Source: a virus. Taken from it: a stretch of DNA of 21,287 bases. Shown piece after piece: positions 3,765 through 19,908 of this stretch (its first letter is position 1; every line of letters begins with the position of its first letter). The translations under genes and the position numbers were made by a program. Under the pieces are notes generated by a model. The model did not search any database, was not told the origin of the DNA, and saw only the letters and a list, made by a program, of their open reading frames with translations. Location: IMG/VR virus record IMGVR_UViG_3300037586_006083, positions 1-21,287 of that record. One strand, 5' to 3'.

Positions 3765-5057
3765 ATGGAAAAAATTTGGTTAAAAGACGGTAAATTCCAA
3801 GAGCTAGATAAAAACACGGCCGAGAATCTACCTATCGAAGAAAAAGCGGCCTATATGGTAGCTAGTAACGGCGCGAAAATGGCGTCTCTAGAGTCTCAAA
3901 TGTCTGAGAAAGTAGGAACAGAAGCAATTGAAGCGTTAAAAGAACAGTTCGGAGAGCTTAAAGAAAAGCACGTCGAGCAGTTGCAAAACGCAATGGAAGA
4001 GCAAGGAAAAACTTTGTCAGAACTTAGAAAGTCGAACGCGGCGAACTTAGTTCCTAAAGGTTTTGACGGAGAACTCGCGGCGGTTTGGAGCAAGTCGAAA
4101 GACTCAATCTCTAACTTTTTGAACGAGAAGAGTAACGGCTTTTCAATGAACTTGAAAACGGAAGTAACTCGCGCGTCAGTGGCTAACAATACAATGGCTA
4201 CCGATGTTCCAGGACTAGGGCACATTCCAAGAAGATCAACGGCGGTTTCTGACTTGTTTAATCAGGCTACAATGGGTCCAGACTCAAACGGAGTGATTAG
4301 ATACTGGCAAGAAGCGAGTCAAACAGACAACGCGGCACCAGTTGCAGAAAGTGCAGTAATTCCAGAGAGTGAGATAACTTGGGAAGAGATATTACTTCCT
4401 TTGAGAAAAATCGGCGACTCAATGAGAGTATCTAGAGAAGCACTTGAGGATGTATCTTTTATATCTGCTGAGATTAGAAATTTCTCTCTTAAAAACGTTG
4501 AGTTACAACTTGATGAGCAGGCGTTACTTGGTGACGGAACTGGTCAAAATTTTAGCGGTGTTGATTTGGTAGCTCCTAATTATGCTGCGGGTGGATTTGC
4601 TGGATTGTTTGGAACGGCTGCAACTATATACGATGTGCTTTCTACAGGTATTGTGCAGATCGCAAACGCAGGACAAAATAGTGTATTTGTTCCTAATGCT
4701 ATCGTTATGAATCCTACAGACGCTGAGTTGATGAGGTTGTCGAAAGATGCTGACAACAACTACATCATGCCAACTTGGTTAAGTACTGACGGGATGAGTG
4801 TTAAAGGTGTTCGTATTATCGAATCTCAATTAGTGCCTCAAAATCAAGCATACATCGGAGATTTTACTTTCGGTACAATGTGGGGAGCAGGAACGACTAC
4901 TTTAGACGTGGCCACTCAACATGGTACAGATTGGATCGAAGATGTACAACGTTTGAAAGTTACAGTTAGAAAGCAATTAGTAATAAGAACGGCTCACTCT
5001 GGAGCATTCTTACATATTGCATCTATCACAGCAGCACAAACCGCGCTTAACGCGTAA
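3765..5057 (+). CDS. Major capsid protein (HK97 fold) with N-terminal scaffold-like region
   Basis: A 430-residue main shell protein. Residues 1 to about 95 are strongly charged and predicted coiled coil (Glu/Lys/Gln-rich, about 40-90), resembling the HK97 delta domain that acts as internal scaffold and is removed by the protease encoded just upstream. The mature shell domain probably starts after residues 95-125, but the cleavage site cannot be fixed from the sequence. The region from IPRRSTAVSDLF (154-165) through the Glu-rich segment near 200 and the LDEQALLGDGTGQNFSG segment (249-265) carries typical HK97-fold motifs. Gene order portal-protease-capsid supports the call. A perfect hairpin terminator follows 11 nt after the stop, as expected for a very highly expressed structural gene. 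Confidence 0.95.
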   Translation: MEKIWLKDGKFQELDKNTAENLPIEEKAAYMVASNGAKMASLESQMSEKVGTEAIEALKEQFGELKEKHVEQLQNAMEEQGKTLSELRKSNAANLVPKGFDGELAAVWSKSKDSISNFLNEKSNGFSMNLKTEVTRASVANNTMATDVPGLGHIPRRSTAVSDLFNQATMGPDSNGVIRYWQEASQTDNAAPVAESAVIPESEITWEEILLPLRKIGDSMRVSREALEDVSFISAEIRNFSLKNVELQLDEQALLGDGTGQNFSGVDLVAPNYAAGGFAGLFGTAATIYDVLSTGIVQIANAGQNSVFVPNAIVMNPTDAELMRLSKDADNNYIMPTWLSTDGMSVKGVRIIESQLVPQNQAYIGDFTFGTMWGAGTTTLDVATQHGTDWIEDVQRLKVTVRKQLVIRTAHSGAFLHIASITAAQTALNA

Positions 5058-5068
5058 TTAATACCATT

Positions 5069-5099
5069 AGTGAGGGACTTAATAATCCCTCACTTTTTT
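5069..5099 (+). terminator. Rho-independent terminator after the capsid gene
   Basis: A perfect 9-bp inverted repeat, AGTGAGGGA (5069-5077) with TCCCTCACT (5086-5094), encloses an 8-nt loop and runs into six T (5094-5099). It lies 11 nt past the capsid stop codon and 16 nt before the next ATG. No TAnnTTTG box lies between it and the next gene, so downstream genes probably depend on read-through or on a promoter of another kind. Confidence 0.9.
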
Positions 5100-5115
5100 A
5101 AACTACTTTACTATT

Positions 5116-5304
5116 ATGAAAATCGAAATAATAAAAGATCACGAATCTGGATTAATTAAAGGTCAAATAAAAGACATTCCAGACCATTTAGCAAAAAGAA
5201 TCATTGCGGATGGTTTAGCCAAAGAAGTAAAAGAAAAGGCAGAAAAAGCACCAAAGAAAGACAAAGCCGAAAAGGCACCTATTAAAAACAAGTCAAAGAA
5301 GTAA
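5116..5304 (+). CDS. Small Lys-rich-tailed protein downstream of capsid, unknown function
   Basis: A 62-residue protein that I do not recognise. The first 37 residues look like a small folded unit with alternating hydrophobics and end in LAKRIIADGLAKEV. The remainder is a very basic, probably disordered tail built from repeats of Glu-Lys-Ala-Pro and Lys-Asp-Lys. It is the first gene after the capsid terminator and ends 10 nt before the connector gene. Small proteins here can be head accessory or connector-associated proteins, and a Lys-rich tail could touch packaged DNA or the shell, but that is inference. The 103-residue gene after the second terminator has the same plan (small N-terminal part, Lys-rich tail). 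Coding status is well supported by operon spacing and the AT-rich leader. Confidence 0.75.
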   Translation: MKIEIIKDHESGLIKGQIKDIPDHLAKRIIADGLAKEVKEKAEKAPKKDKAEKAPIKNKSKK

Positions 5305-5314
5305 ATCAAAATAA

Positions 5315-5839
5315 ATGGGAACTTTCGTAAATACAAGCGATTTTACAAACGGTGAGATTTTAATCTCTCAAAGTTCAGCAACGGAACAAGAACTTGAACC
5401 GTATATCGACACGGCAGAGCTTGAGATACTTCAAGATCTTTTCGGTTCGGAGTTGTACGCTTTATTTATAGCCGATCTAGTTGGAGGGGTTCCACAGGAT
5501 GCCAGATTTGTTGCTGTATTTAATGCCTTTTACGACGACTCCGATTCTGTGGTAGGTTGGTGTTGTGGTGCCAGTAGGTCGGAGGGTATTAAAAAGATGT
5601 TAATGCGTTTTATTAATTTCAGTTTTACGAGGGATCAACCACATCAAAACACGCCAGTAGGAACAGTAAAAAACCAATCCGAAAACAGCACGAACGCAAG
5701 CGCGGCGGCTTATGGTGCTGTAATTAAATATAATATTGCGGTTGAATCATACCAAGCAATAGCGCGTAAAATGATATTAGACACGGCAACATATCCAGAG
5801 TACAACGGAATACCAAAAGAGAAAACAATATTTATATAA
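5315..5839 (+). CDS. Putative head-tail connector protein
   Basis: A 174-residue, largely helical protein. The segment ELEPYIDTAELEILQDLFGSEL (22 residues, near 26-47, key residues Tyr30, Asp32, Glu35, Leu39 and Phe43) resembles the N-terminal helix pair of gp6/gp15-like connectors, which build the ring below the portal. The second half (about 130-160, Ala-rich) is another long helix. Residues 85-95 hold a Trp-Cys-Cys-Gly stretch of unknown meaning. Its position after the capsid gene and before the neck/tail genes is the usual connector slot. It begins 10 nt after the previous stop and ends immediately before the next ATG with no gap. The assignment relies on position and helical pattern; no signature motif proves it. 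Confidence 0.6.
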   Translation: MGTFVNTSDFTNGEILISQSSATEQELEPYIDTAELEILQDLFGSELYALFIADLVGGVPQDARFVAVFNAFYDDSDSVVGWCCGASRSEGIKKMLMRFINFSFTRDQPHQNTPVGTVKNQSENSTNASAAAYGAVIKYNIAVESYQAIARKMILDTATYPEYNGIPKEKTIFI

Positions 5840-8242
5840 ATGAGTCAAATCCGAACAAAGGACACAGTTGATGCCGTTAAAGAGTTGGTGTCTCAGTTGA
5901 CGCCCCTATTCATAATTAAGGAGGCAATCGACAACGGAGATGAAACTTTCACGCTCTCAACAAATCGGACTTACTGGCTTACGATCAATAAGCGTATTAC
6001 GATCGATTCAATCGAGTACAGAATCACAGCCTTTGAGATAAACGTCTCAATCACTATTAAACCAATTACAACGGGCGACCCAATACCTACAGTTACGTTT
6101 TTTACTATCCCCGCTCCTTTGTTTTTTCATGGTGTTACGCTTATGGCAGTCGACGAACAGGGCAAAAACAAGGACCCTAACGGACGTATCCCCTTCGTTT
6201 GGCTTTACGAAATACTAGACGAAACCGTAATAAAAGACGAGTTCGATCCTTGGGGGCGTAGTTCAAAGCCTCAATTGTTTTTTATGGATGAGTCGAGCCT
6301 TGCGAATTGGACTTCGGCAGACCATAAGACAAACGTATTAGAGCCAATGCGTCAAATGGTGGAACTATTTTTCGAAAAGATTAACGACTCTGAGGGCGAC
6401 AAGTACAAAGAAATTTTAACAAGCTCACAGATTGCGCGAGCGAATTGGGGTAAATTTATCACGGATTTAGGCAGCGTAAAGAAGTTTTTTAACGACGATT
6501 TATCTGGTCACCAAGTCGGTTTTGATTTTGTAATGTCAAAAACAGAGTGCGATACTCGATCCGAAAATGTTGTAGCCTGTAATTTAACGGCACAAGTCAC
6601 AACGATCGCAGAAACTGGGGTCGGTGAAAATGATGGGATTGCAATATCTACGCCTATAAATGGAATAGGTCCTTATACTTATTCATGGAGCGGGCCGAGT
6701 GGCTTTTCCTCAACTCTTCAATGTATTGTAGGCTTAGAACCTGGAGTCTATACGGTAGTAATAACGGACCAAGGTGTCGAACAATGTACCGACCAAGAAA
6801 GCGGAACAGTTGTTTCGGCGGGTGCTTGCGGGTTGATAATAGATAGTATAACATTCACAGAGCCGTCTTACTATGGGGCTAGTGATGGTACGGCTATAGT
6901 TAACTACTCTGGAAATATTGGAAGCGTTCTAATAGAATGGAGCAACGGCCAAACTTCCCAAACTGCCACAGGATTAACGGCGGGGCGTAGTTGCGTTGTT
7001 GTTGTTGATACTGGAGCATCAGGATGTTTTGAAATGGGTTTTGTAAATATAACTAATGGGGCTGCATTATCATTTAGCTCAAACGCGGCCTCTAGTACAA
7101 TATTTGGCGTTACTTACACGGGAATTAATACTCTTACATGGACAGACGAAATAGATACTTATACAGGTACATCAGTTACTTTTGCAAACTGGAATGATTC
7201 AACCGTAAAGAATGTTAGATTAGATGTAGATGATCCCGAAAATATTAGTGGATTTACAGCCAATACGTTTAATAATAAGAGCATTACCAGTATGAATTGG
7301 GGCGGTATGGCCAATATTTCGGGCGTAATAAATTGTAATAATAACCCAAATTTAACTACTCTTGTAGATCCACCAGTAACCAATACTATTACAGAGCTTC
7401 AATTTTTTGATGCTGATTTATTATCGTTTAACTGGGACAACTATCAGCAATGTGAGTATCTAAGGCTCGATAATAATACAAACTTGTCTAGTATTACGCT
7501 AACTGGTATAACGGCATCCTTAAAGTATTTTAATTATGGTTTAGGTAGTGCGAATGTAGACCTTAGTAGCTTTTCAAACTGTACAGCGGATTGCGATATA
7601 ACTTATACAGGTACAGGAACCTTTACACCCCCAACAATGGGAACTGGTTCTATTGATGATGTTGTAATAATGAATATCTCTAATAGCACGTTAGATTTAA
7701 GCAGTTGGACAAAAACAAGTTCCAATGCTGTATGGAGGGTAGAAGGTTGCCCAAGCCTAACAACCCTTGATCTGCCTACGACAACGATCGGACAAATAAA
7801 TCCAAGAATTAGGGATAATCCTAATTTAACAACGTGTGACCCTAGTGGGTTTTTCGATGTTAAGGGAGAGTACCAATTCAATCTTAACACTTCATTAACT
7901 TCATGCCCATTCCCAACCGTAATTATTTCTAGTAAGATCAATTTAACGATGGGTAATAATCTTTTAGGTTATAGTGACATAACTGTAATGAGTGGTTTGT
8001 TCGGATTCAATAACGTTATCATTCATTTGTTAAATAACTCTATGTCAACTATTGAGGTTAATCATTATTTAGTCGATATATTATCTATGGTTTCAGGAGA
8101 AAGCCCAGGAGGTGACTATACAGGTAGAGCAGTAAGTATAAACGGCACAAATGCAGCTCCAGACGGTTCTAGTGGAGGTTATGACGGCGATCAAGCCGTA
8201 ATTGATTTGGTAGCTCTAGGATTTACAATAACAACTAGCTAA
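5840..8242 (+). CDS. Neck/tail structural protein fused to SprB-like repeats and an LRR-like C-terminus
   Basis: An 800-residue protein with three visible parts. Residues 1 to about 235 form a globular domain of unknown family (Trp/Phe-rich, with FDPWGR at 135-140 and a helix near 165-185) that sits in the neck or tail-terminator position of the operon. Residues about 246-326 and 330-407 are two Ig-like SprB-type repeats. The first shows the hallmark PYTYSWSGPSGF (278-289), then GLEPGVYTVVITD (298-310); the second is more diverged (IEWSNGQTS, then TGLTAGRSCVVVVD). Residues 408-800 carry irregular leucine-rich-type units with recurring L-x-x-L-x-L and N-x-P-N-L-T-T, ending in Gly/Ser-rich loops and VIDLVALGFTITTS. 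There is no signal peptide, so it is probably displayed on the virion rather than secreted. SprB repeats are known from flavobacterial gliding adhesins; a role in binding host surface or mucus glycans is inference. It could also be a tail-side decoration with no receptor role. Confidence 0.8.
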   Translation: MSQIRTKDTVDAVKELVSQLTPLFIIKEAIDNGDETFTLSTNRTYWLTINKRITIDSIEYRITAFEINVSITIKPITTGDPIPTVTFFTIPAPLFFHGVTLMAVDEQGKNKDPNGRIPFVWLYEILDETVIKDEFDPWGRSSKPQLFFMDESSLANWTSADHKTNVLEPMRQMVELFFEKINDSEGDKYKEILTSSQIARANWGKFITDLGSVKKFFNDDLSGHQVGFDFVMSKTECDTRSENVVACNLTAQVTTIAETGVGENDGIAISTPINGIGPYTYSWSGPSGFSSTLQCIVGLEPGVYTVVITDQGVEQCTDQESGTVVSAGACGLIIDSITFTEPSYYGASDGTAIVNYSGNIGSVLIEWSNGQTSQTATGLTAGRSCVVVVDTGASGCFEMGFVNITNGAALSFSSNAASSTIFGVTYTGINTLTWTDEIDTYTGTSVTFANWNDSTVKNVRLDVDDPENISGFTANTFNNKSITSMNWGGMANISGVINCNNNPNLTTLVDPPVTNTITELQFFDADLLSFNWDNYQQCEYLRLDNNTNLSSITLTGITASLKYFNYGLGSANVDLSSFSNCTADCDITYTGTGTFTPPTMGTGSIDDVVIMNISNSTLDLSSWTKTSSNAVWRVEGCPSLTTLDLPTTTIGQINPRIRDNPNLTTCDPSGFFDVKGEYQFNLNTSLTSCPFPTVIISSKINLTMGNNLLGYSDITVMSGLFGFNNVIIHLLNNSMSTIEVNHYLVDILSMVSGESPGGDYTGRAVSINGTNAAPDGSSGGYDGDQAVIDLVALGFTITTS

Positions 8243-8245
8243 TAA

Positions 8246-8431
8246 ATGGAAGAGAATTTCACAAAGCCGATAAGATTAATTTATAGCATTGATTATAATT
8301 GCTATACATTATTTACGTCTGGTAAGACTTATTTTGATGAATTAAAATACAGCGTTAAATATTTCGATACTATTGAAGAGGTTAGAGATTTTTTAACTAG
8401 CGAGGGAATAGACATAGTAGAATTAAATTAG
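8246..8431 (+). CDS. Small hypothetical protein
   Basis: A 61-residue acidic, aromatic-rich protein (many Tyr, Asp and Glu) that I do not recognise. It has alternating beta-like segments at about 8-24 and 33-41 and a short helix at about 42-53 (EEVRDFLTSEGI). It starts 3 nt after the 800-residue protein's stop and is the last gene before the promoter of the tail protein, so it is likely co-translated with its large neighbour. No membrane segment, signal peptide or metal motif is visible. A chaperone or partner of the upstream adhesin-like protein is possible only by position. Composition matches its neighbours, so it looks like a genuine phage gene. Confidence 0.65.
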   Translation: MEENFTKPIRLIYSIDYNCYTLFTSGKTYFDELKYSVKYFDTIEEVRDFLTSEGIDIVELN

Positions 8432-8449
8432 TAATAAATTTTAAAAGGT

Positions 8450-8457
8450 TACCTTTG
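8450..8457 (+). promoter_or_regulatory. Bacteroidota-type -7 promoter box TACCTTTG before the tail-tube gene
   Basis: TACCTTTG matches TAnnTTTG exactly and lies in the 66-nt gap before the tail-tube gene, 40 nt ahead of its ATG. No TTTG is present at the -33 distance, although a TTAG stands 18 nt upstream (8428-8431). The rest of the gap is an A/T-rich leader without a Shine-Dalgarno sequence. A dedicated promoter would suit an abundant structural protein. Confidence 0.5.
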
Positions 8458-8497
8458 GACTAGCTAAATATAAATATTAACTAATAAAAATAAAATT

Positions 8498-9451
8498 ATG
8501 ATACCAGTATGCAATTGCGCCGATGGAAACACTATCCAAAACTTTGGAGGCTTCGAAAAGTGTAGCAAGGGAATAGGTATTCCTTTGAGTATAACGTTTA
8601 ACACAGAGGAAACTGTAGCGGGAGATGTTAACGGGTTAATTCTCGCAAGTGAAACGCCTAACCAAGCATTTTTTGATTCTAAATATGGAAACCAAACAAT
8701 AGAAGATAGATGGTTAAGACTTGACGGGATTAAGCAATACGACGCGCCCCCAGTTGATCCAAATACTCAAGAATTTGACGATGGCTCTAGCTATGTATTG
8801 AATAAAAACAGTAAAGAGGTTTCTTTTGTAATCGTAACGGCTGAAGCCAATAAAATGTTAGCAAAAGTAGAGGCGTCTGTAGAATGTCGCGGAATGGTTG
8901 CATCTTTTGGTGACTCGTTCGACAATTGGGTAGGTCAAAGCGATGGGGTAAACTTCACAGGACGTAAGATTCAAGACGGATCTTTTTCTGCCAGCGTGAT
9001 AGAAAGACAAGACTCGACAGTATCTCAACTTGTTATAAAATTTAAATGGGATAGATCGGCTTTGGAATCGGCTGTTGATTATATAGCAGCTTCATCAATG
9101 GATGGTTATAGTATTAAAAATGATACTGTAGACTTAATAGACGCGCGTATCAGTTATGGCACGTCTTTAACTACTGGTATTGCTTTTGATATTCATTCCG
9201 ATGTAGGCGGATCATTTAGCCGTTTACCTTTGGGCGGTCTTACTGAGACTAATCTCGAAGCGTATAACATTACGGATTCACAAGTAGAGGCGGGAACAAT
9301 AAGCGAAGACCCAATAGGTTCTTACGTTTATACTTATACTGTAGCAATTTCTGCGGGTAAGGATATTACGATTAGACCTATTACCAATCCGATACAAAAG
9401 TCATACGATTGTAAGGACTTAACGGCGGATAAGTTTAAAACGTCTGCATAA
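8498..9451 (+). CDS. Putative major tail (tube) protein
   Basis: A 317-residue, beta-rich protein proposed to polymerise into the tail tube. Support is contextual: it is the only gene of suitable size between the neck genes and the tape measure, it has its own promoter-like box, and a strong terminator follows it, mirroring the capsid gene. The sequence is dominated by alternating beta-type stretches with many Thr, Ser, Gly and Asp and lacks membrane or enzymatic motifs. The N-terminus has three Cys (Cys5, Cys7, Cys22) close together in a segment ending FGGFEKC, a possible small metal or disulfide site. Residues 110-185 (Val/Ser-rich) and 240-305 look like two beta sandwiches; the latter could be an added Ig-like domain. 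No second tube or sheath gene is seen, which argues for a siphovirus. Confidence 0.72.
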   Translation: MIPVCNCADGNTIQNFGGFEKCSKGIGIPLSITFNTEETVAGDVNGLILASETPNQAFFDSKYGNQTIEDRWLRLDGIKQYDAPPVDPNTQEFDDGSSYVLNKNSKEVSFVIVTAEANKMLAKVEASVECRGMVASFGDSFDNWVGQSDGVNFTGRKIQDGSFSASVIERQDSTVSQLVIKFKWDRSALESAVDYIAASSMDGYSIKNDTVDLIDARISYGTSLTTGIAFDIHSDVGGSFSRLPLGGLTETNLEAYNITDSQVEAGTISEDPIGSYVYTYTVAISAGKDITIRPITNPIQKSYDCKDLTADKFKTSA

Positions 9452-9490
9452 ACACAATGAACGCGTAAACATTGGAACCGCGCAACATGG

Positions 9491-9520
9491 AACCCCTTGC
9501 AGAATTGTAAGGGGTTTTTT
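9491..9520 (+). terminator. Rho-independent terminator after the tail-tube gene
   Basis: An 8-bp perfect stem, AACCCCTT (9491-9498) with AAGGGGTT (9509-9516), surrounds a 10-nt loop and is followed by a T run (9515-9520). It lies 39 nt after the stop codon. The stretch before it (9452-9490) has no gene, only a short imperfect direct repeat, AACATTGGAACC (9468-9479) and AACATGGAACCC (9484-9495). The next promoter box starts 4 nt after the terminator. Confidence 0.9.
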
Positions 9521-9523
9521 GTT

Positions 9524-9531
9524 TATATTTG
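9524..9531 (+). promoter_or_regulatory. Bacteroidota-type -7 promoter box TATATTTG right behind a terminator
   Basis: TATATTTG matches TAnnTTTG and begins 4 nt past the terminator's T run, 18 nt before the next ATG. A TTG at 9505-9507 lies inside the terminator loop, 16 nt upstream of the box, and could serve as the -33 element, slightly short of the usual spacing. Transcription would thus stop and restart within about 40 nt. Confidence 0.55.
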
Positions 9532-9549
9532 ATAAAACATTAACATATT

Positions 9550-9861
9550 ATGGAAATTATAATACAAAATATACGATTTGTTTATCCAGGTTGTAAACTC
9601 TTGACAAAAGAGAAGTTTGACCGATCTTACGGCGACAAGAACGTGAACGGAACAGGAAAGCCAACGCACCACAATCTTAACAGACACAACGCCGACAGGG
9701 TTTTCGAATCGTTAAAGCAAGCGATAAAAGACAAAACCGAGATCGACAAGCGAGACAAAGAATCGGCAAAGGCAGCCAAAGCCAAAAAGGTTGAGGTCGT
9801 AAAAGTTGAAAAGTCAGAGCCGAAAAAGAAAAAAAAGAAGACAGTAAAAAAGTCTAAATAA
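9550..9861 (+). CDS. Small basic protein with poly-Lys tail, unknown function
   Basis: A 103-residue protein that I do not recognise. The first 20 residues look like a short beta segment (EIIIQNIRFVYPG), followed by a polar His/Asn-rich stretch (about 36-50, with THHNLNRHN). From about residue 60 the protein is an alternation of Lys, Ala, Glu and Val, ending in a run of six Lys and VKKSK. It opens the operon restarted after the second terminator, and its TAA overlaps the next gene's ATG (TAATG at 9859-9863). The pattern matches the 62-residue gene after the capsid terminator. Its place between tail tube and tape measure would suit a tail-assembly chaperone, but composition gives no positive support. 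Two A_AAA_AAG heptamers occur in the Lys tail but cannot extend the protein into the next gene. Confidence 0.72.
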   Translation: MEIIIQNIRFVYPGCKLLTKEKFDRSYGDKNVNGTGKPTHHNLNRHNADRVFESLKQAIKDKTEIDKRDKESAKAAKAKKVEVVKVEKSEPKKKKKKTVKKSK

Positions 9862-10343
9862 TGGGCGAATTTTTTGGAGCTTTTAAGGAGTTACGGGATC
9901 GCGTCGCCTCTATTAACCAAAATGTTTTAATTAACACGATTTTAAGCCGACCAGAATATCAGTCTTTCATAGTTAGGCTTAATACAGAGGTACAGATGTT
10001 CGAGTTAAACGTCGATTCTAACGGGATCAAATTAGCCGCGAACCGTTCGGGATATTCTGACAATACGCTCAGGATCTCGGCGGAAGAGGGACGGCCAAAG
10101 AGAGGGCGGGATCGCGTCGACTTACACGACACAGGCAAGTACTACGAGAGCCACGCCGTCGACATTGGTTCACTAAAAAACGATTATTTCACCATGCTAT
10201 CGGACGCCCAAAAAGACGAGACGGACCTAGTCGACGAGTGGGGTCCTATACTTGGACTAACTGAGGAAAGTATGAACGCGCTATCGGCTTTTATTTTATT
10301 GGCTTTTTTGCCGTTATTATTAGAAACCATTCAAGATGCTTGA
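9861..10343 (+). CDS. Putative tail-completion/assembly protein
   Basis: A 160-residue protein with a charged central region containing RDRVDLHDTGKYYESHAVD (about 83-101). The DLHDTGKYYES pattern resembles the L-x-x-TG-x-x-x-S motif of small tail-completion and virion-morphogenesis proteins, so that role is suggested. The end of the protein (about 140-156) is a hydrophobic helix (ALSAFILLAFLPLLLETI) that may bury in a complex or touch membrane. It starts within the previous stop (TAATG) and overlaps the next gene by 8 nt. An in-frame T_TTT_TTG heptamer (10304-10310) occurs in the hydrophobic end; slippage there would give an unrelated 38-residue basic extension, so I do not call programmed frameshifting. 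Function is tentative. Confidence 0.62.
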   Translation: MGEFFGAFKELRDRVASINQNVLINTILSRPEYQSFIVRLNTEVQMFELNVDSNGIKLAANRSGYSDNTLRISAEEGRPKRGRDRVDLHDTGKYYESHAVDIGSLKNDYFTMLSDAQKDETDLVDEWGPILGLTEESMNALSAFILLAFLPLLLETIQDA

Positions 10344-10821
10344 CGAAAAAGAAATTTACAGAGGGATCGACGATATGCCTCAAGCCGTTTGGAGAGAATT
10401 GGAGAAAACAGACGAGACGCGTTTGATATACAAAGACGCGAGAAAAGTCACAAGGAGACACCGCAAAGCCTTAGAACAGCGAAAACAAGAGATAAAAGAC
10501 CAATATTTCAACGAGATCGCAATGAATACAGACCTAGAGGCTTATTTAATGAAGTTGGTCAAAAGGGAAATTTTACGGACTAAATTAACGATCAAAGACG
10601 ATAATTATATTAAAACACTTTATCTAAAAATTGACAACGAGATAAAAAGCCTTACGCCTAATGATATTAATTCAGATAAAAAGTATTACGAAAATAAGGC
10701 TATCTTGACTAAATACATGGGGGGAAATTACATCGACGAGAACAAAGTTTCAGTTAGAGAGTATTATAGTTACATGAAGATGTTATTAAAAGAATCCGAA
10801 AGGGCAAACGCAAGAGCCTAA
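10336..10821 (+). CDS. Hypothetical protein upstream of tape measure, possible tail-assembly chaperone
   Basis: A 161-residue, highly charged and almost fully helical protein. The N-terminus reads YRGIDDMPQAVWRELEKTD (8-26), followed by a strongly basic helical region (about 30-60, RKVTRRHRKALEQRKQE) and an alternation of Leu/Ile and Lys to the end. It sits directly before the tape measure, where siphophages encode assembly chaperones that coat the tape measure protein, and a helical acidic/basic protein would suit that. The usual chaperone frameshift pair is not evident: this gene is in the +1 (or -2) frame relative to the upstream gene, and a TAG at 10321-10323 closes its frame before the overlap. 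The gene could be an ordinary independent protein of the tail operon. Confidence 0.6.
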   Translation: MLDEKEIYRGIDDMPQAVWRELEKTDETRLIYKDARKVTRRHRKALEQRKQEIKDQYFNEIAMNTDLEAYLMKLVKREILRTKLTIKDDNYIKTLYLKIDNEIKSLTPNDINSDKKYYENKAILTKYMGGNYIDENKVSVREYYSYMKMLLKESERANARA

Positions 10822-10842
10822 AATAACTAAATAAAAAATAGT

Positions 10843-10850
10843 TAAATTTG
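10843..10850 (+). promoter_or_regulatory. Bacteroidota-type -7 promoter box TAAATTTG before the tape measure gene
   Basis: TAAATTTG, identical to the box before the portal gene, lies 22 nt before the GTG start of the tape measure gene in a 51-nt A-rich gap. No TTG/TTTG is seen at -33. A transcript start shortly after the box would leave a leader of about 18 nt. Confidence 0.5.
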
Positions 10851-10872
10851 TATAAATCCAATCCTTTAATAA

Positions 10873-13800
10873 GTGGCTAATAAAATAATAAAGCACGAAG
10901 ACCTTTTCGAGCCTAAAATAACAAAAGGATTAATTAAGGAATTGGACGACCTTATAAAAAAGGGAAACGAAACAGAAAAGGAGCTAAAGGACATATTAAA
11001 AGTACTTCAAGAAATACAATCTATAAAGAGTGCTAAAGGGCTTCGCGAGTTCACAGTTCAAACCGAAAAACTCAACAAAGCACAAAGCCAAAGAGCTAAA
11101 AATCAGCAAACAAGTATAGAGATCGGTAAAAAAGTCGAGGCTCAAGGCAAGCGATTAAAGATTGCTAACTCTGACCGGATCCAGCAGGAGGTACAATTAA
11201 AACGACTAACCAAGGAGCAAAATGCATCTAACAAGGACGCGGAGATACTTAATAATAAAAGTGCGGGGACGCTTGAAAAATTAGCCGCATCTAGTCGTAA
11301 GTTAAGGCGTGAGAGAGAGAAATTAAACCTAGACACCGAAAAAGGACGGAAAAGGTTAATCGAAATCAATAAACAGCTTGACAAAAACAATAAAATAGTC
11401 CTCAAAAACTCCGATTCACTCAAAAAACAAAAGATAAACGTAGGCAATTACTCTGAATCAATAAAAGAAGCTGCTAGTGCTAGCGGGTTATTTGGTAAGG
11501 TTCTCGGCCCATTATCAGCTATTCAAGGTACTTTAAATGCCTTAATGAAAAAAAATACGTTAGAAAACGAAGCTAATGCAGCAGCAACCCAAGCAAATGC
11601 AGCCTCTACTAAAAAATTATCTATAGCCCAGAGAGCTAGTGCGGTTGCAACTGGAATAGGAACCAAGGCTTTAAAAGTGTTTAAGTTTGCTTTAGCTTCC
11701 ACTGGAATAGGTCTTTTAGTTGTTGCTCTAGGCTCTTTAATTGCATTCTTTAGTAGGAGCCAGAAGGGAATTGATTTTCTTAAAATCAAGATGGCTCAGA
11801 TGGGTGCTGTTGTTGACGTTATAATTGATGCGTTCGCCGCGTTTGGAGAAGCCATATTTGATACATTCTCTAAGCCAAAGGATTTAATAGATTCATTTAT
11901 AGGGCTTATAAAAAGCCTGCCAGGATTAATTTTAGACAATCTAGTAAATAGATTAAAGGCTTTCGGGGTAATTCTTGAAGCGTTAATAGAGGGCGATTTA
12001 GCAGCATTAACAGATGGGTTTTTACAGCTAGGCACTGGTGTTGAAGATTTTTCACAAAAAGCTTCCGACGCTATAGAGAAAGTAAAAGAAGTATCAGCGG
12101 AAGCAGCCGAAGCAACTAGGTTGCTTGCTAAAGAGATGATAGAAAAGGCTAGAATTGCAGGAATATTACAAGAATTAACCATTAAATTAAACAGGGAAGA
12201 ACTCATATTTACAGCTCAACAAGCGGCAACGGCTAATGAAATAGCAAAACAAACATTAATATTTAAAGACAAATTAAAGTCAGATAAAGAAAGGCTAGCA
12301 GCTGTACAAAAAACAAACAGACTAGAGATAAAACTATCAGAAAGGCAGCTCGAATTAGAACAAGAAGCACTTGCGGCGTCACTTGATGCATTAAGTAAAA
12401 ATGAGAAATCGCTTAAATTAGACTCCGAACGGTTAAAATTCATTGAAGATATAAAGAGCGGAAATATTGACTCAGCAGAAGCAGTAGAAAAGGCCGCTGC
12501 ATTCACTTTAAGTTCAGCCGAAGGAGAGGAAGCGTTGAAAGATGTAATTGAAAAAGTAAACGCATTAGAAGCGGCTAAGTTGGCGTTATTACAGAAGCAA
12601 AGTACAACAGCCAAAAGAACTGCATCAGTTACTAAGGAAATAGCGACGAAAAATGCTACAGCACTAACTAGGGAGGCGGCGGCATTTAGAGAACTTGCAA
12701 AGAATAAAGAAGAAACTATCGAGGAGCGAATTAGGCTAACTAAGGCAGCCGCAGCCGCAGAAATAAAGTCTTTTGAAGTTCAGTTTATTGCAAATATTAA
12801 AAATGAAAAAGAATTAGCCGCTGCAAAAATTCAAATAAATGCTAAATTAATAGCAGATTTAAAGAAGCTACGGGAGAAAGGCACTGTAGAAGAAAATAAT
12901 ACAACACTAAAAAAAGAAAAGGAATTACAAGAAGACATTATAAGACAAGAACGATTCTTAGCAGGTGAAAAAATAGATTTACAAGAAGAGCAGGCACAAG
13001 CAGAAAAGAAAAGGTTAAAAGAAAGGATTGATTTGTTAGAAAAGGATTCTATCGAACGGCTTGAGTTAGAAAAGCAATATAACACCCTATTGATTGTCGA
13101 GGCAGAGAAAGCTAAAAAGAAAGCTGAAGCTGCAGAAGCAAAAAAGAAAAAAGAAAGAGAAGATTTAATTAATTCTACTACTGATGAGTTTTTAAAGGGT
13201 CTAAAGAAGCAAAACGAGGCCGAAAACGCAAGCAGGGACGCCGCAATAGAGAAGCAAGAGACGGCTTTATCAGTGCAAGAAGAGAGGGCAAAGAAAGGAT
13301 TAACAAATACATTAGCATTTGAACAGGAACAACTTGATAAAGCTAACCTAGAGAGACAAAGAGAACTCGAAAGGCAAGCCAAACAGCAAGAGATTATAGC
13401 ATTAGTACAGGCTTATTTAAACCAATTTCAAGAACTATCTAAAACAGAGCCAGACACGGCAGCATTTAAAGCATTTACGAACACATTATTAGCTAAATCG
13501 GTGGCTAAAGGATTAACGGGATTTATTGAAGGAACGGAGCTAGTTGAACGAGATATGAACGGCAGTAAATTTAGCAGTGGCCAAGATGGCTACATAGCTA
13601 AATTCGATGGTAAAGAGCGAATACTAAACCCCGCACAAAACATGGCTTTACCTAAAGGAATGACCAACGCCGAACTCGTACAAGCGGCACAAGACTATTC
13701 TAAGGGCAATACATGGGGATTTATGCCAACCGTAGCAAATACGACCGACTCAGGCGCCACAACAAAGGCAATAATTGCAAGTAATAACAAAGTTATTAAG

Positions 13801-13935
13801 GCAATAGAAAACAACGCGTCGTCGATGAGTGTAGACTCGGAGGGGTTAATGCATTTAGTCGAGAAACGAGTGAGTAGAGGCAAAAAGGAAATAATACATT
13901 TTATCAATAAGAAGTATAAAATGTTACCTAAATAA
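10873..13935 (+). CDS. Tail tape measure protein
   Basis: A 1020-residue protein that sets tail length and is ejected with the DNA. The first 200 residues and about 400-860 are Lys/Glu/Ala/Leu-rich coiled coil. A motif KKQKINVGNYSESI (184-197) marks the end of the first coil. A hydrophobic segment at about 271-293 (ALASTGIGLLVVALGSLIAFF) is a probable membrane-spanning helix, as in many tape measure proteins that cross the inner membrane. Near the C-terminus a conserved-looking block, SSGQDGYIAKFDGKERILNP (about 898-917), resembles the DG-x-x-A-x-x-x-x-G-E-x-V/I motif that follows the coil in many tape measure proteins. The start is a GTG at 10873 directly after an in-frame TAA (10870-10872); there is no nearby in-frame ATG, so the GTG is effectively forced. 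It overlaps the next gene by one base (TAATG). Confidence 0.93.
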   Translation: MANKIIKHEDLFEPKITKGLIKELDDLIKKGNETEKELKDILKVLQEIQSIKSAKGLREFTVQTEKLNKAQSQRAKNQQTSIEIGKKVEAQGKRLKIANSDRIQQEVQLKRLTKEQNASNKDAEILNNKSAGTLEKLAASSRKLRREREKLNLDTEKGRKRLIEINKQLDKNNKIVLKNSDSLKKQKINVGNYSESIKEAASASGLFGKVLGPLSAIQGTLNALMKKNTLENEANAAATQANAASTKKLSIAQRASAVATGIGTKALKVFKFALASTGIGLLVVALGSLIAFFSRSQKGIDFLKIKMAQMGAVVDVIIDAFAAFGEAIFDTFSKPKDLIDSFIGLIKSLPGLILDNLVNRLKAFGVILEALIEGDLAALTDGFLQLGTGVEDFSQKASDAIEKVKEVSAEAAEATRLLAKEMIEKARIAGILQELTIKLNREELIFTAQQAATANEIAKQTLIFKDKLKSDKERLAAVQKTNRLEIKLSERQLELEQEALAASLDALSKNEKSLKLDSERLKFIEDIKSGNIDSAEAVEKAAAFTLSSAEGEEALKDVIEKVNALEAAKLALLQKQSTTAKRTASVTKEIATKNATALTREAAAFRELAKNKEETIEERIRLTKAAAAAEIKSFEVQFIANIKNEKELAAAKIQINAKLIADLKKLREKGTVEENNTTLKKEKELQEDIIRQERFLAGEKIDLQEEQAQAEKKRLKERIDLLEKDSIERLELEKQYNTLLIVEAEKAKKKAEAAEAKKKKEREDLINSTTDEFLKGLKKQNEAENASRDAAIEKQETALSVQEERAKKGLTNTLAFEQEQLDKANLERQRELERQAKQQEIIALVQAYLNQFQELSKTEPDTAAFKAFTNTLLAKSVAKGLTGFIEGTELVERDMNGSKFSSGQDGYIAKFDGKERILNPAQNMALPKGMTNAELVQAAQDYSKGNTWGFMPTVANTTDSGATTKAIIASNNKVIKAIENNASSMSVDSEGLMHLVEKRVSRGKKEIIHFINKKYKMLPK

Positions 13936-18475: not shown

Positions 18476-19561
18476 ATGGCAACAACAGGAAGAATAAGCG
18501 ACTACGATGATGAACTACTAGTCCCCCCCGCCGATGATGACTTACTAGATATATCGGTTTTAGTATCTACAGGCCCCGACGTTCGGGTATCAACAAAAAT
18601 GCGATACGCCGAAATTAAAGTATCGTCTTCACCCATAGCTAATGATATAATTGCTATAGGTAACGCAGCGGGGACAGGAATAGAAGCAAGTACGGGAAAA
18701 GCGGGAGCAGTCTCAGGGTATCCAGACGATTTTGCAATAGCGCATGAGGATTTTTTCAACGATTCAGAATTTTTAGCATATCAAGCCCAGAACGGAATAA
18801 GTTATATATCGTGCAAAACAGGTGAATCCGTTAGGTTTTCCGTAGGTTTAGACAATAAAATGACTATAATCGACTCTGGAGTACAAATGAGCGTAGTAGG
18901 TAGCGAAAATGTTACTATCGGCGTTAGTTTGCTCGCTGGATTGGGGGCTAAACTAGAAGTTAGAGGCGACGACGATGACGACGCTACCCCTGTAGTTATT
19001 TTATCAAATTTCTCTGGAGGTAATTTGTTCCAAGTTACGGCTGCGGGAACGGTAACGCTTTTAAATGGTACAGGAATAAACGAATTTTCAACTGACGGAA
19101 CACTCGCGGGAGACTCAGACGACGCAGTACCAACAGAAAAAGCGGTTAAGACTTATGTTGATGCTCAATCGGGCGGTGGATGGTTAGGCTCTGAAACTAG
19201 AATAAAAATAGCTCCTTGGGATATAGTTTCGTATAACGATAAAGACGGCGTTTCTATACAAGACGATGGGGGTGTAGTAAATGATGCTGCTGCTAAGATT
19301 ACTACAATGGTAACAGGTGTTTTTATCCCTACAGGTTACAGGGCTACAGCTTTTAAAATTAATGCGAGCGCAAATATAGCCGTAGAGTTGTTCGAAAGTC
19401 AGGTATGGGACTCAACGGCAGTATCAAAAGGCTCAGGCAATGCAAATACGGAAATAAACATAACAAACGTAAACTCTACGGCTACAAATTATCTCTCCAT
19501 AATTATAGTAGAGGCAGGTAATGATATTTATGGAGGTTACATCACAATAGAAAAAATATAA
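18476..19561 (+). CDS. Tail fibre / receptor-binding-type protein
   Basis: A 361-residue protein with hallmarks of a phage tail fibre. The N-terminus (about 6-47) has the acidic LPP-type anchor pattern, LLVPPADDDLLDISVLV followed by TKMRYAEIK, resembling segments that attach fibres to the tail. The middle is low-complexity beta with Gly/Asp/Ser turns, including five Asp in a row (165-169). The segment FSTDGTLAGDSDDAVPTEKA (204-223) with VKTYVD is a very common fibre motif preceding the receptor-binding head. The C-terminal about 130 residues form a compact beta domain with Gly-rich turns, probably the receptor-binding head. A C7 tract lies in codons 16-18 (18523-18529). It has its own promoter box and ends on the next ATG (TAATG). 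Receptor identity is unknown. Confidence 0.82.
   Translation: MATTGRISDYDDELLVPPADDDLLDISVLVSTGPDVRVSTKMRYAEIKVSSSPIANDIIAIGNAAGTGIEASTGKAGAVSGYPDDFAIAHEDFFNDSEFLAYQAQNGISYISCKTGESVRFSVGLDNKMTIIDSGVQMSVVGSENVTIGVSLLAGLGAKLEVRGDDDDDATPVVILSNFSGGNLFQVTAAGTVTLLNGTGINEFSTDGTLAGDSDDAVPTEKAVKTYVDAQSGGGWLGSETRIKIAPWDIVSYNDKDGVSIQDDGGVVNDAAAKITTMVTGVFIPTGYRATAFKINASANIAVELFESQVWDSTAVSKGSGNANTEINITNVNSTATNYLSIIIVEAGNDIYGGYITIEKI
18523..18529 (+). repeat. C7 homopolymer in the start of the fibre gene
   Basis: A run of seven C sits 47 nt after the start codon in an otherwise AT-rich gene, encoding Val-Pro-Pro (GTC CCC CCC). A one-base slip would shift the frame of the whole fibre. It is the most obvious homopolymeric C tract I noticed in the window. 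Confidence 0.6.
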
Positions 19562-19908
19562 TGCAACAAACTTACCCACATTTAAAAAGTCAGTGCTGTA
19601 GACTGAAAACTCAAGTACCTGAAAATACATTACAAAAAATAATAGATAACGCCGAGTTAAATAATTCAGATATTTACCCCGCGCAAGATACAGGAAACTT
19701 TATGCAGTTTGATATGACTAACGAGGCGGAGGGATACCCGTGTGTTCATTTAGGTGAAGAGGGTTGTACTATACACCCTCAACGCCCTGCTCAATGTGCT
19801 TCTTTTCCTTTAACGGAAAAAAGCATAGATTTTTGCACGGGTTGTAGCTATACATTTGATGCGAATGAGAACAGGTCAGGCTCTTGTAATGGTTGTAATG
19901 TAGTATAA
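19561..19908 (+). CDS. YkgJ-like cysteine-cluster protein (putative Zn/Fe-chelating domain) in the tail operon
   Basis: A 115-residue protein with nine Cys (12, 13, 61, 69, 79, 92, 95, 109, 112). The core YPCVHLGEEGCTIHPQRPAQ (59-78) continues to CASFPL and follows the C-x-x-L...C-x-I-(H/Y)-x-x-R-P-x-x-C-x-x-F-P signature of the YkgJ/UPF0153 family (PF03692), whose Cys are thought to bind zinc or iron. The N-terminal CC pair at 12-13 fits the family's first ligands. Two further CxxC pairs (92-95 and 109-112) extend the cluster. Flanking genes are tail-fibre-like and virion-like, and both junctions are TAATG, so it is translated with them. The exact chemistry of this family is not settled; FliB flagellin-lysine methylases belong to the same Pfam family. 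A virion or assembly role is inference, and a host-directed metal-binding role is equally open. Confidence 0.78.
   Translation: MQQTYPHLKSQCCRLKTQVPENTLQKIIDNAELNNSDIYPAQDTGNFMQFDMTNEAEGYPCVHLGEEGCTIHPQRPAQCASFPLTEKSIDFCTGCSYTFDANENRSGSCNGCNVV

Follow-up and report, generated by a model that had tools for sequence, protein, structure and literature searches.

The DNA analyzed here, a window of 21,287 bases, is the whole of one virus record and has the gene order of a long-tailed phage. Our study indicates that its 800-residue protein is probably a siphophage-like tail terminator with an accessory receptor-binding arm, which would be displayed and would bind. On the best reading, the locus encodes adhesion heads that can be swapped and would be displayed at the neck, together with a small protein as their partner. 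The ORF is intact, without an internal stop, and its ATG lies directly behind the stop of the adaptor gene. Full-length relatives occur at the related loci L002 (95% identity) and L003 (89%), and dN/dS values of about 0.2-0.3 in the SprB and leucine-rich repeat (LRR) parts indicate purifying selection, also in the head (about 0.2). Thus, this is a selected protein and not a chance reading frame. An earlier note on this DNA had described the ORF as an N-terminal part followed by two SprB repeats and an LRR domain, which is right in order and in kind. Two points need correction: a 61-residue ORF farther on is part of the unit of interest, and conservation of the N-terminal part reaches to about residues 230-235.

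Table 1. Features of the window discussed in the text (aa, residues of the 800-residue protein).
Feature	Position	Strand	Remarks
Terminase	from 511		
Portal	from 1776		
Prohead protease	from 3085		
Major capsid	from 3765		
Small ORF	from 5116		
Adaptor-like gene	from 5315		
800-residue ORF	5840-8242	+	anchor, repeats and head
Anchor, aa 1-235	5840-6544	+	predicted tail terminator, from model, fold matches, 15-member family and gene position
Inserted beta-barrel in anchor, aa 19-93	5894-6118	+	predicted model
Cassette exchanged relative to L006, aa 231-800 and small ORF	6530-8433	+	DNA comparison
First SprB/Ig-like repeat, aa 246-326	6575-6817	+	PF13573, best stretch aa 263-287
Second SprB/Ig-like repeat, aa 330-407	6827-7060	+	second PF13573 stretch
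Head, aa 408-800	7061-8239	+	LRR solenoid aa 408-740 and C-terminal cap about aa 741-800
Small ORF, 61 aa	8246-8431	+	3 nt behind the stop of the 800-residue ORF; head-specific partner, candidate chaperone
Putative major tail protein	8498-9451		assigned by position
Tail protein	from 9861		
Putative tape measure	from 10873		tail-tip genes beyond
Tail-fiber-like gene	18476-19561		distal, separate from the 800-residue ORF

The tail protein encoded at 13935 has counterparts of about 25% identity in Flavobacterium phages. Therefore, from this sequence resemblance, a Bacteroidota host is likely for the window phage. The uncultured phage group with the headed neck protein probably infects Bacteroidota. 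Genome contigs searched by pattern yielded no relative of either the anchor or the capsid protein and so narrow the host no further. In the isolated Flavobacterium phages that share the 13935 gene, the ORF behind the capsid gene encodes 378 residues and bears no resemblance by reading.

The anchor, residues 1-235, has homologues of 34-96% identity in 14 other loci, giving a family of 15 members with the window. An AlphaFold model built from these 15 homologues (pLDDT 80, pTM 0.80) has the beta-sheet flanked by helices that is typical of gpU and p142, and its best matches by VIA (Z 8-9.6) are neck and tail-terminator proteins. These include proteins of NF5, Bxb1, Mycofy1 and Douge as well as lambda gpU, T5 p142 and T4 gp15. 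The resemblance is middling (Z up to 9.6, 3.4-4 Å over 120-136 residues) and comes without a sequence match; Foldseek places gpU first (E 2.3e-3). No Pfam or PHROG family worth trusting was found for the anchor. In all complete relatives, the gene lies between the adaptor/stopper gene and that of the major tail protein. Given the terminator-like predicted fold and this gene position, a tail terminator is the best identification of the anchor. This supports the neck or terminator slot claimed earlier: terminator and neck proteins, not a tail-fiber family, head the fold lists. A phmmer match to capsid chain 7yjl (E 2e-4) fell to E 0.49 by profile and was taken as chance. In BFVD, two headless proteins of 246 and 228 residues match the anchor over their full length (E 8e-19 and 2e-16; TM 0.76-0.80). 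Therefore, the head is an add-on.

Between anchor and head lie the repeats. The window protein matches PF13573 in two stretches at E 1.1e-3 and 19 bits, under the curated cut-off of 28, and the excised 162-residue stretch reaches E 8e-5. The same profile is above cut-off in L003 (28.7 bits) and L016 (32.1 bits); in L016 the equivalent of the second repeat, with its best stretch at aa 344-371, adds to the score. Thus, the two repeats proposed for the window are present, scoring below threshold there and above it in relatives. They fold poorly in the model (pLDDT <50). SprB is a gliding adhesin of Flavobacterium, and the repeat is what the phage protein has in common with it. The phage protein differs in having 0-2 repeats as spacers, with no other SprB feature seen. 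The special tie to gliding motility drawn in the earlier note had the name of the repeat as its only basis and is therefore dropped, while its neck protein, SprB repeats and LRR fold stand, with display of the adhesion modules at the neck as the preferred reading. The repeats, present in 0, 1 or 2 copies among the relatives, look like generic Ig-like spacers.

The case for an LRR head comes from its predicted fold. The AlphaFold model has a mean pLDDT of 54, with values mostly of 55-85 in the LRR part, and all 50 fold matches listed are LRR solenoids (Z 13.4-18.4). The head is thus a curved LRR-type beta-solenoid in a model of moderate confidence. On the other hand, no LRR profile is above cut-off for residues 408-800 (LRR_5, E 0.7), and in L016 the profiles are suggestive but below cut-off (LRR_EndoS, E 0.06-0.14; LRR_4, E 0.4-0.95). 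The LRR-like domain claimed earlier is therefore upheld by fold and not by profile. Its C-terminal cap, GGDYTGR...APDGSSGGYDGDQAVIDLVA, is conserved in all LRR heads, including that of L059 (see below).

The 14 related loci share one design: the conserved predicted terminator, zero to two SprB repeats, an exchangeable head and a small ORF. Two SprB repeats with an LRR head are found in the window, L002, L003, L016 and L018. One LamG-like class, with one or two SprB-like repeats, comprises L043, L047 and L055, and a second comprises L006, L039, L048 and L054, of which L006 is without a SprB repeat. L053 has a further LamG head and L049 a different C-terminus; L043 and L053 score above cut-off for Laminin_G_3. 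Mapping the head classes onto the anchor tree takes 7 changes, against a possible minimum of 4 and a mean of 7.6 for shuffled labels. Therefore, heads do not follow anchors. Close anchors indeed carry unlike heads in L047 and L048 (88% identical) and in the window group and L006 (82%). In a phage collection, tblastn with anchor and heads gave only weak LamG matches in cyanophages, and the SprB part gave one uncultured jumbo phage as a weak match.

What is exchanged can be read from the DNA. The window and L006 are similar over 5116-6529 and 8434-10898, both flanks being about 81% identical, and not at all in between, the boundary falling directly behind the small ORF. Head and small ORF thus form the unit of exchange. 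L047 and L048 repeat this pattern: immediately past the small ORF they are 98% identical. Between the window and L003 the situation is reversed: pS is 0.45-0.81 in the flanking genes and the anchor, but 0.05-0.26 in aa 361-800 and 0.00 in the small ORF. At four-fold sites, 13/192 differ in head and small ORF against 89/182 in the flanks (p=3e-21). These substitution patterns mark a recent recombination of the LRR head and its small ORF between the window and L003.

Every complete locus has such an ORF of 58-92 residues, starting no more than 4 nt from the stop of the large gene or overlapping it. Its class covaries with that of the head, with a mean Z of 12 within classes versus 0.3 between them (permutation p 5e-5, kinship ignored). 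Head classes were set from C-terminal sequences and agree with BLAST except for L006, which is weakly linked; the small ORFs of L006 and L053 match their own class poorly or not at all. Read-through of the stop codon into the small ORF would be in frame in the window. However, the small ORF is out of frame in L016 and L006, and read-through was therefore rejected as a general mechanism. Modular tail fibers combine a conserved anchor, an exchanged C-terminal head and a downstream assembly chaperone of the Tfa/gp38 type. The present locus resembles them in its conserved anchor, exchanged head and small cognate gene directly behind, whereas its anchor belongs to the neck and its small ORFs are without a family match, with no Pfam hit and no similarity to a known chaperone family. 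Most simply, the small ORF is a candidate folding or assembly partner specific to the head, although linkage by itself could also keep head and small ORF together.

A search with the LRR head also retrieved a stand-alone protein of 413 residues in L059/L060, 43% identical over 396 residues. It lies in a Mu-like phage region (positions 3943-6378), behind genes for a baseplate wedge protein, Baseplate_J, a Mu gp48-like protein and two fiber-like proteins. The baseplate wedge, Baseplate_J and Mu gp48-like genes mark L059/L060 as a contractile phage; it is unrelated to that of the window, and in it the head protein occupies the tail-fiber slot. The same head thus occurs at the predicted neck of one type of phage and in another's fiber slot, and no other observation hints as strongly at a receptor-binding module. 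Two nt behind the L059 head begins a 63-residue ORF weakly similar to the small ORF of the window; with 2/1000 shuffles scoring as high, the link is a weak one.

Architecture, conservation, selection, exchange and fold resemblance are computed results; from them we infer the following arrangement. Residues 1-235 would make up a ring closing the tail tube and connecting it with the head of the virion. Each subunit would send out two Ig-like SprB repeats with an LRR head at their end, so that the neck would be surrounded by probably six heads. The head is an interchangeable module, its place on the same ring being taken in relatives by LamG/concanavalin-like heads, and the small ORF would belong to it and help it to fold or assemble, much as tail-fiber chaperones do. 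The heads may bind host surface glycans or proteins, providing a weak, multivalent contact besides the tail-tip fibers. In phages of this group, receptor-binding modules thus seem to sit both at the neck and at the tail tip. More tentatively, and with the balance slightly against it, we suggest a broader scheme of plug-in receptor-binding heads, each with its folding partner, that recombine between phages and between virion positions (the neck terminator of siphophage-like phages and the tail-fiber tip of contractile ones), making the neck a second, independently evolving recognition site.

Ig-like domains on phage capsids have been proposed to hold virions in mucus. Similarly, the heads might hold the virion in mucus, biofilm polysaccharide or particles without host specificity, their exchange reflecting habitat and not receptor. 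SprB, LamG and LRR are general adhesion folds and the phage already has a distal fiber gene, which speaks for this reading, but the swapping of unrelated head classes on near-identical rings and the use of the same head in a tail-fiber slot are what receptor-binding modules do, and we consider retention of this kind unlikely. It is more improbable still that the C-terminal part is removed or serves assembly only, leaving mature virions with just the N-terminal terminator: the cap at the C-terminus, which is strongly conserved, could have a part in processing or folding, yet long extensions of several unrelated head types under purifying selection fit surface display better. The least probable alternative, in which the N-terminal part is a distal-tail or fiber-attachment protein and the gene an ordinary tail fiber placed early in the operon, could draw on the LRR head in the tail-fiber slot of L059 and on the misleading gene position of T5 p143 (PMC11784142), but is opposed by the fold lists, by a gene position that in every complete relative falls between those of the adaptor and the major tail protein, and by a slot that has no other terminator candidate.

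The nearest known kind to the terminator with swappable heads is the neck passage structure (NPS) of lactococcal 936/P335 phages. NPS proteins have a near-identical N-terminus and several unrelated, exchanged carbohydrate-binding C-termini, one of whose CBMs has been shown to bind the host weakly (PMC6669499), and domain exchange is documented among them (PMC10684548). The phage protein shares this combination of a conserved N-terminus with exchanged, unrelated C-termini. In contrast, NPS has a BppU-like beta-sandwich collar anchor and a coiled-coil stalk, and is dispensable, where the phage protein has a predicted terminator as anchor, a SprB/Ig-like stalk, LRR or LamG-like heads, a cognate small ORF behind it and hosts that are probably Bacteroidota. 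As the anchor is terminator-like and is followed by SprB repeats instead of BppU and a coiled coil, the protein would work like NPS without being a member of that group.

With tail terminators (lambda gpU, T5 p142, SPP1 gp17, T4 gp15), the protein shares the predicted fold and the gene position, but it is much longer, with an inserted beta-barrel and a C-terminal adhesion extension. Larger terminators with sheath-binding domains are known (PMC11784142), and the terminator C-terminus of E217 gp29 extends outward (PMC10329688), whereas that of T5 p142 lies at the subunit interface (PMC11784142). In the literature covered, with most subscription papers outside its scope, neither a terminator bearing adhesion heads nor an LRR protein of the neck came to light. 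BFVD also holds proteins of 600-1035 residues from uncultured phages (A0A6J5N4L8, A0A6J5N5P2, A0A516L5A5 and others) that have a terminator-like part, some of them carrying collagen or SO2946-like domain names. Terminators fused to adhesive extensions may therefore be widespread.

The tail tip is where host range is usually looked for. If terminators bear receptor-binding heads that can be exchanged, a recognition site escapes both annotation and host prediction, and a hot spot of exchange would lie in a structural protein for which constraint is expected. The natural pairs, one ring with different heads and one head at both neck and fiber slot, make an adsorption role of the neck head testable. 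Besides, the small ORFs may encode chaperones of a new, head-specific kind.

Elsewhere in these genomes, the prohead protease genes of L002 (685-1362) and L006 (1673-2341) are at pS 0.12-0.14 from the window, where most neighboring genes are at 0.25-0.46, a sign of another recent recombination tract. In the tail-tip region of the window, a 115-residue ORF (19561-19908) between a fiber-like gene and a 308-residue ORF encodes a putative zinc- or iron-chelating CxxCxxCC domain (PF03692, cut-off 23, score 29.6 bits), unusual for a phage late operon. The putative tape measures of the window (10873-13935), L003 (12973-16056) and L002 (8469-11513), otherwise close relatives, were compared by reading. 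Their N-terminal and central parts differ strongly while the C-terminus agrees, which suggests at the sequence level that mosaic exchange has occurred inside this putative gene too.
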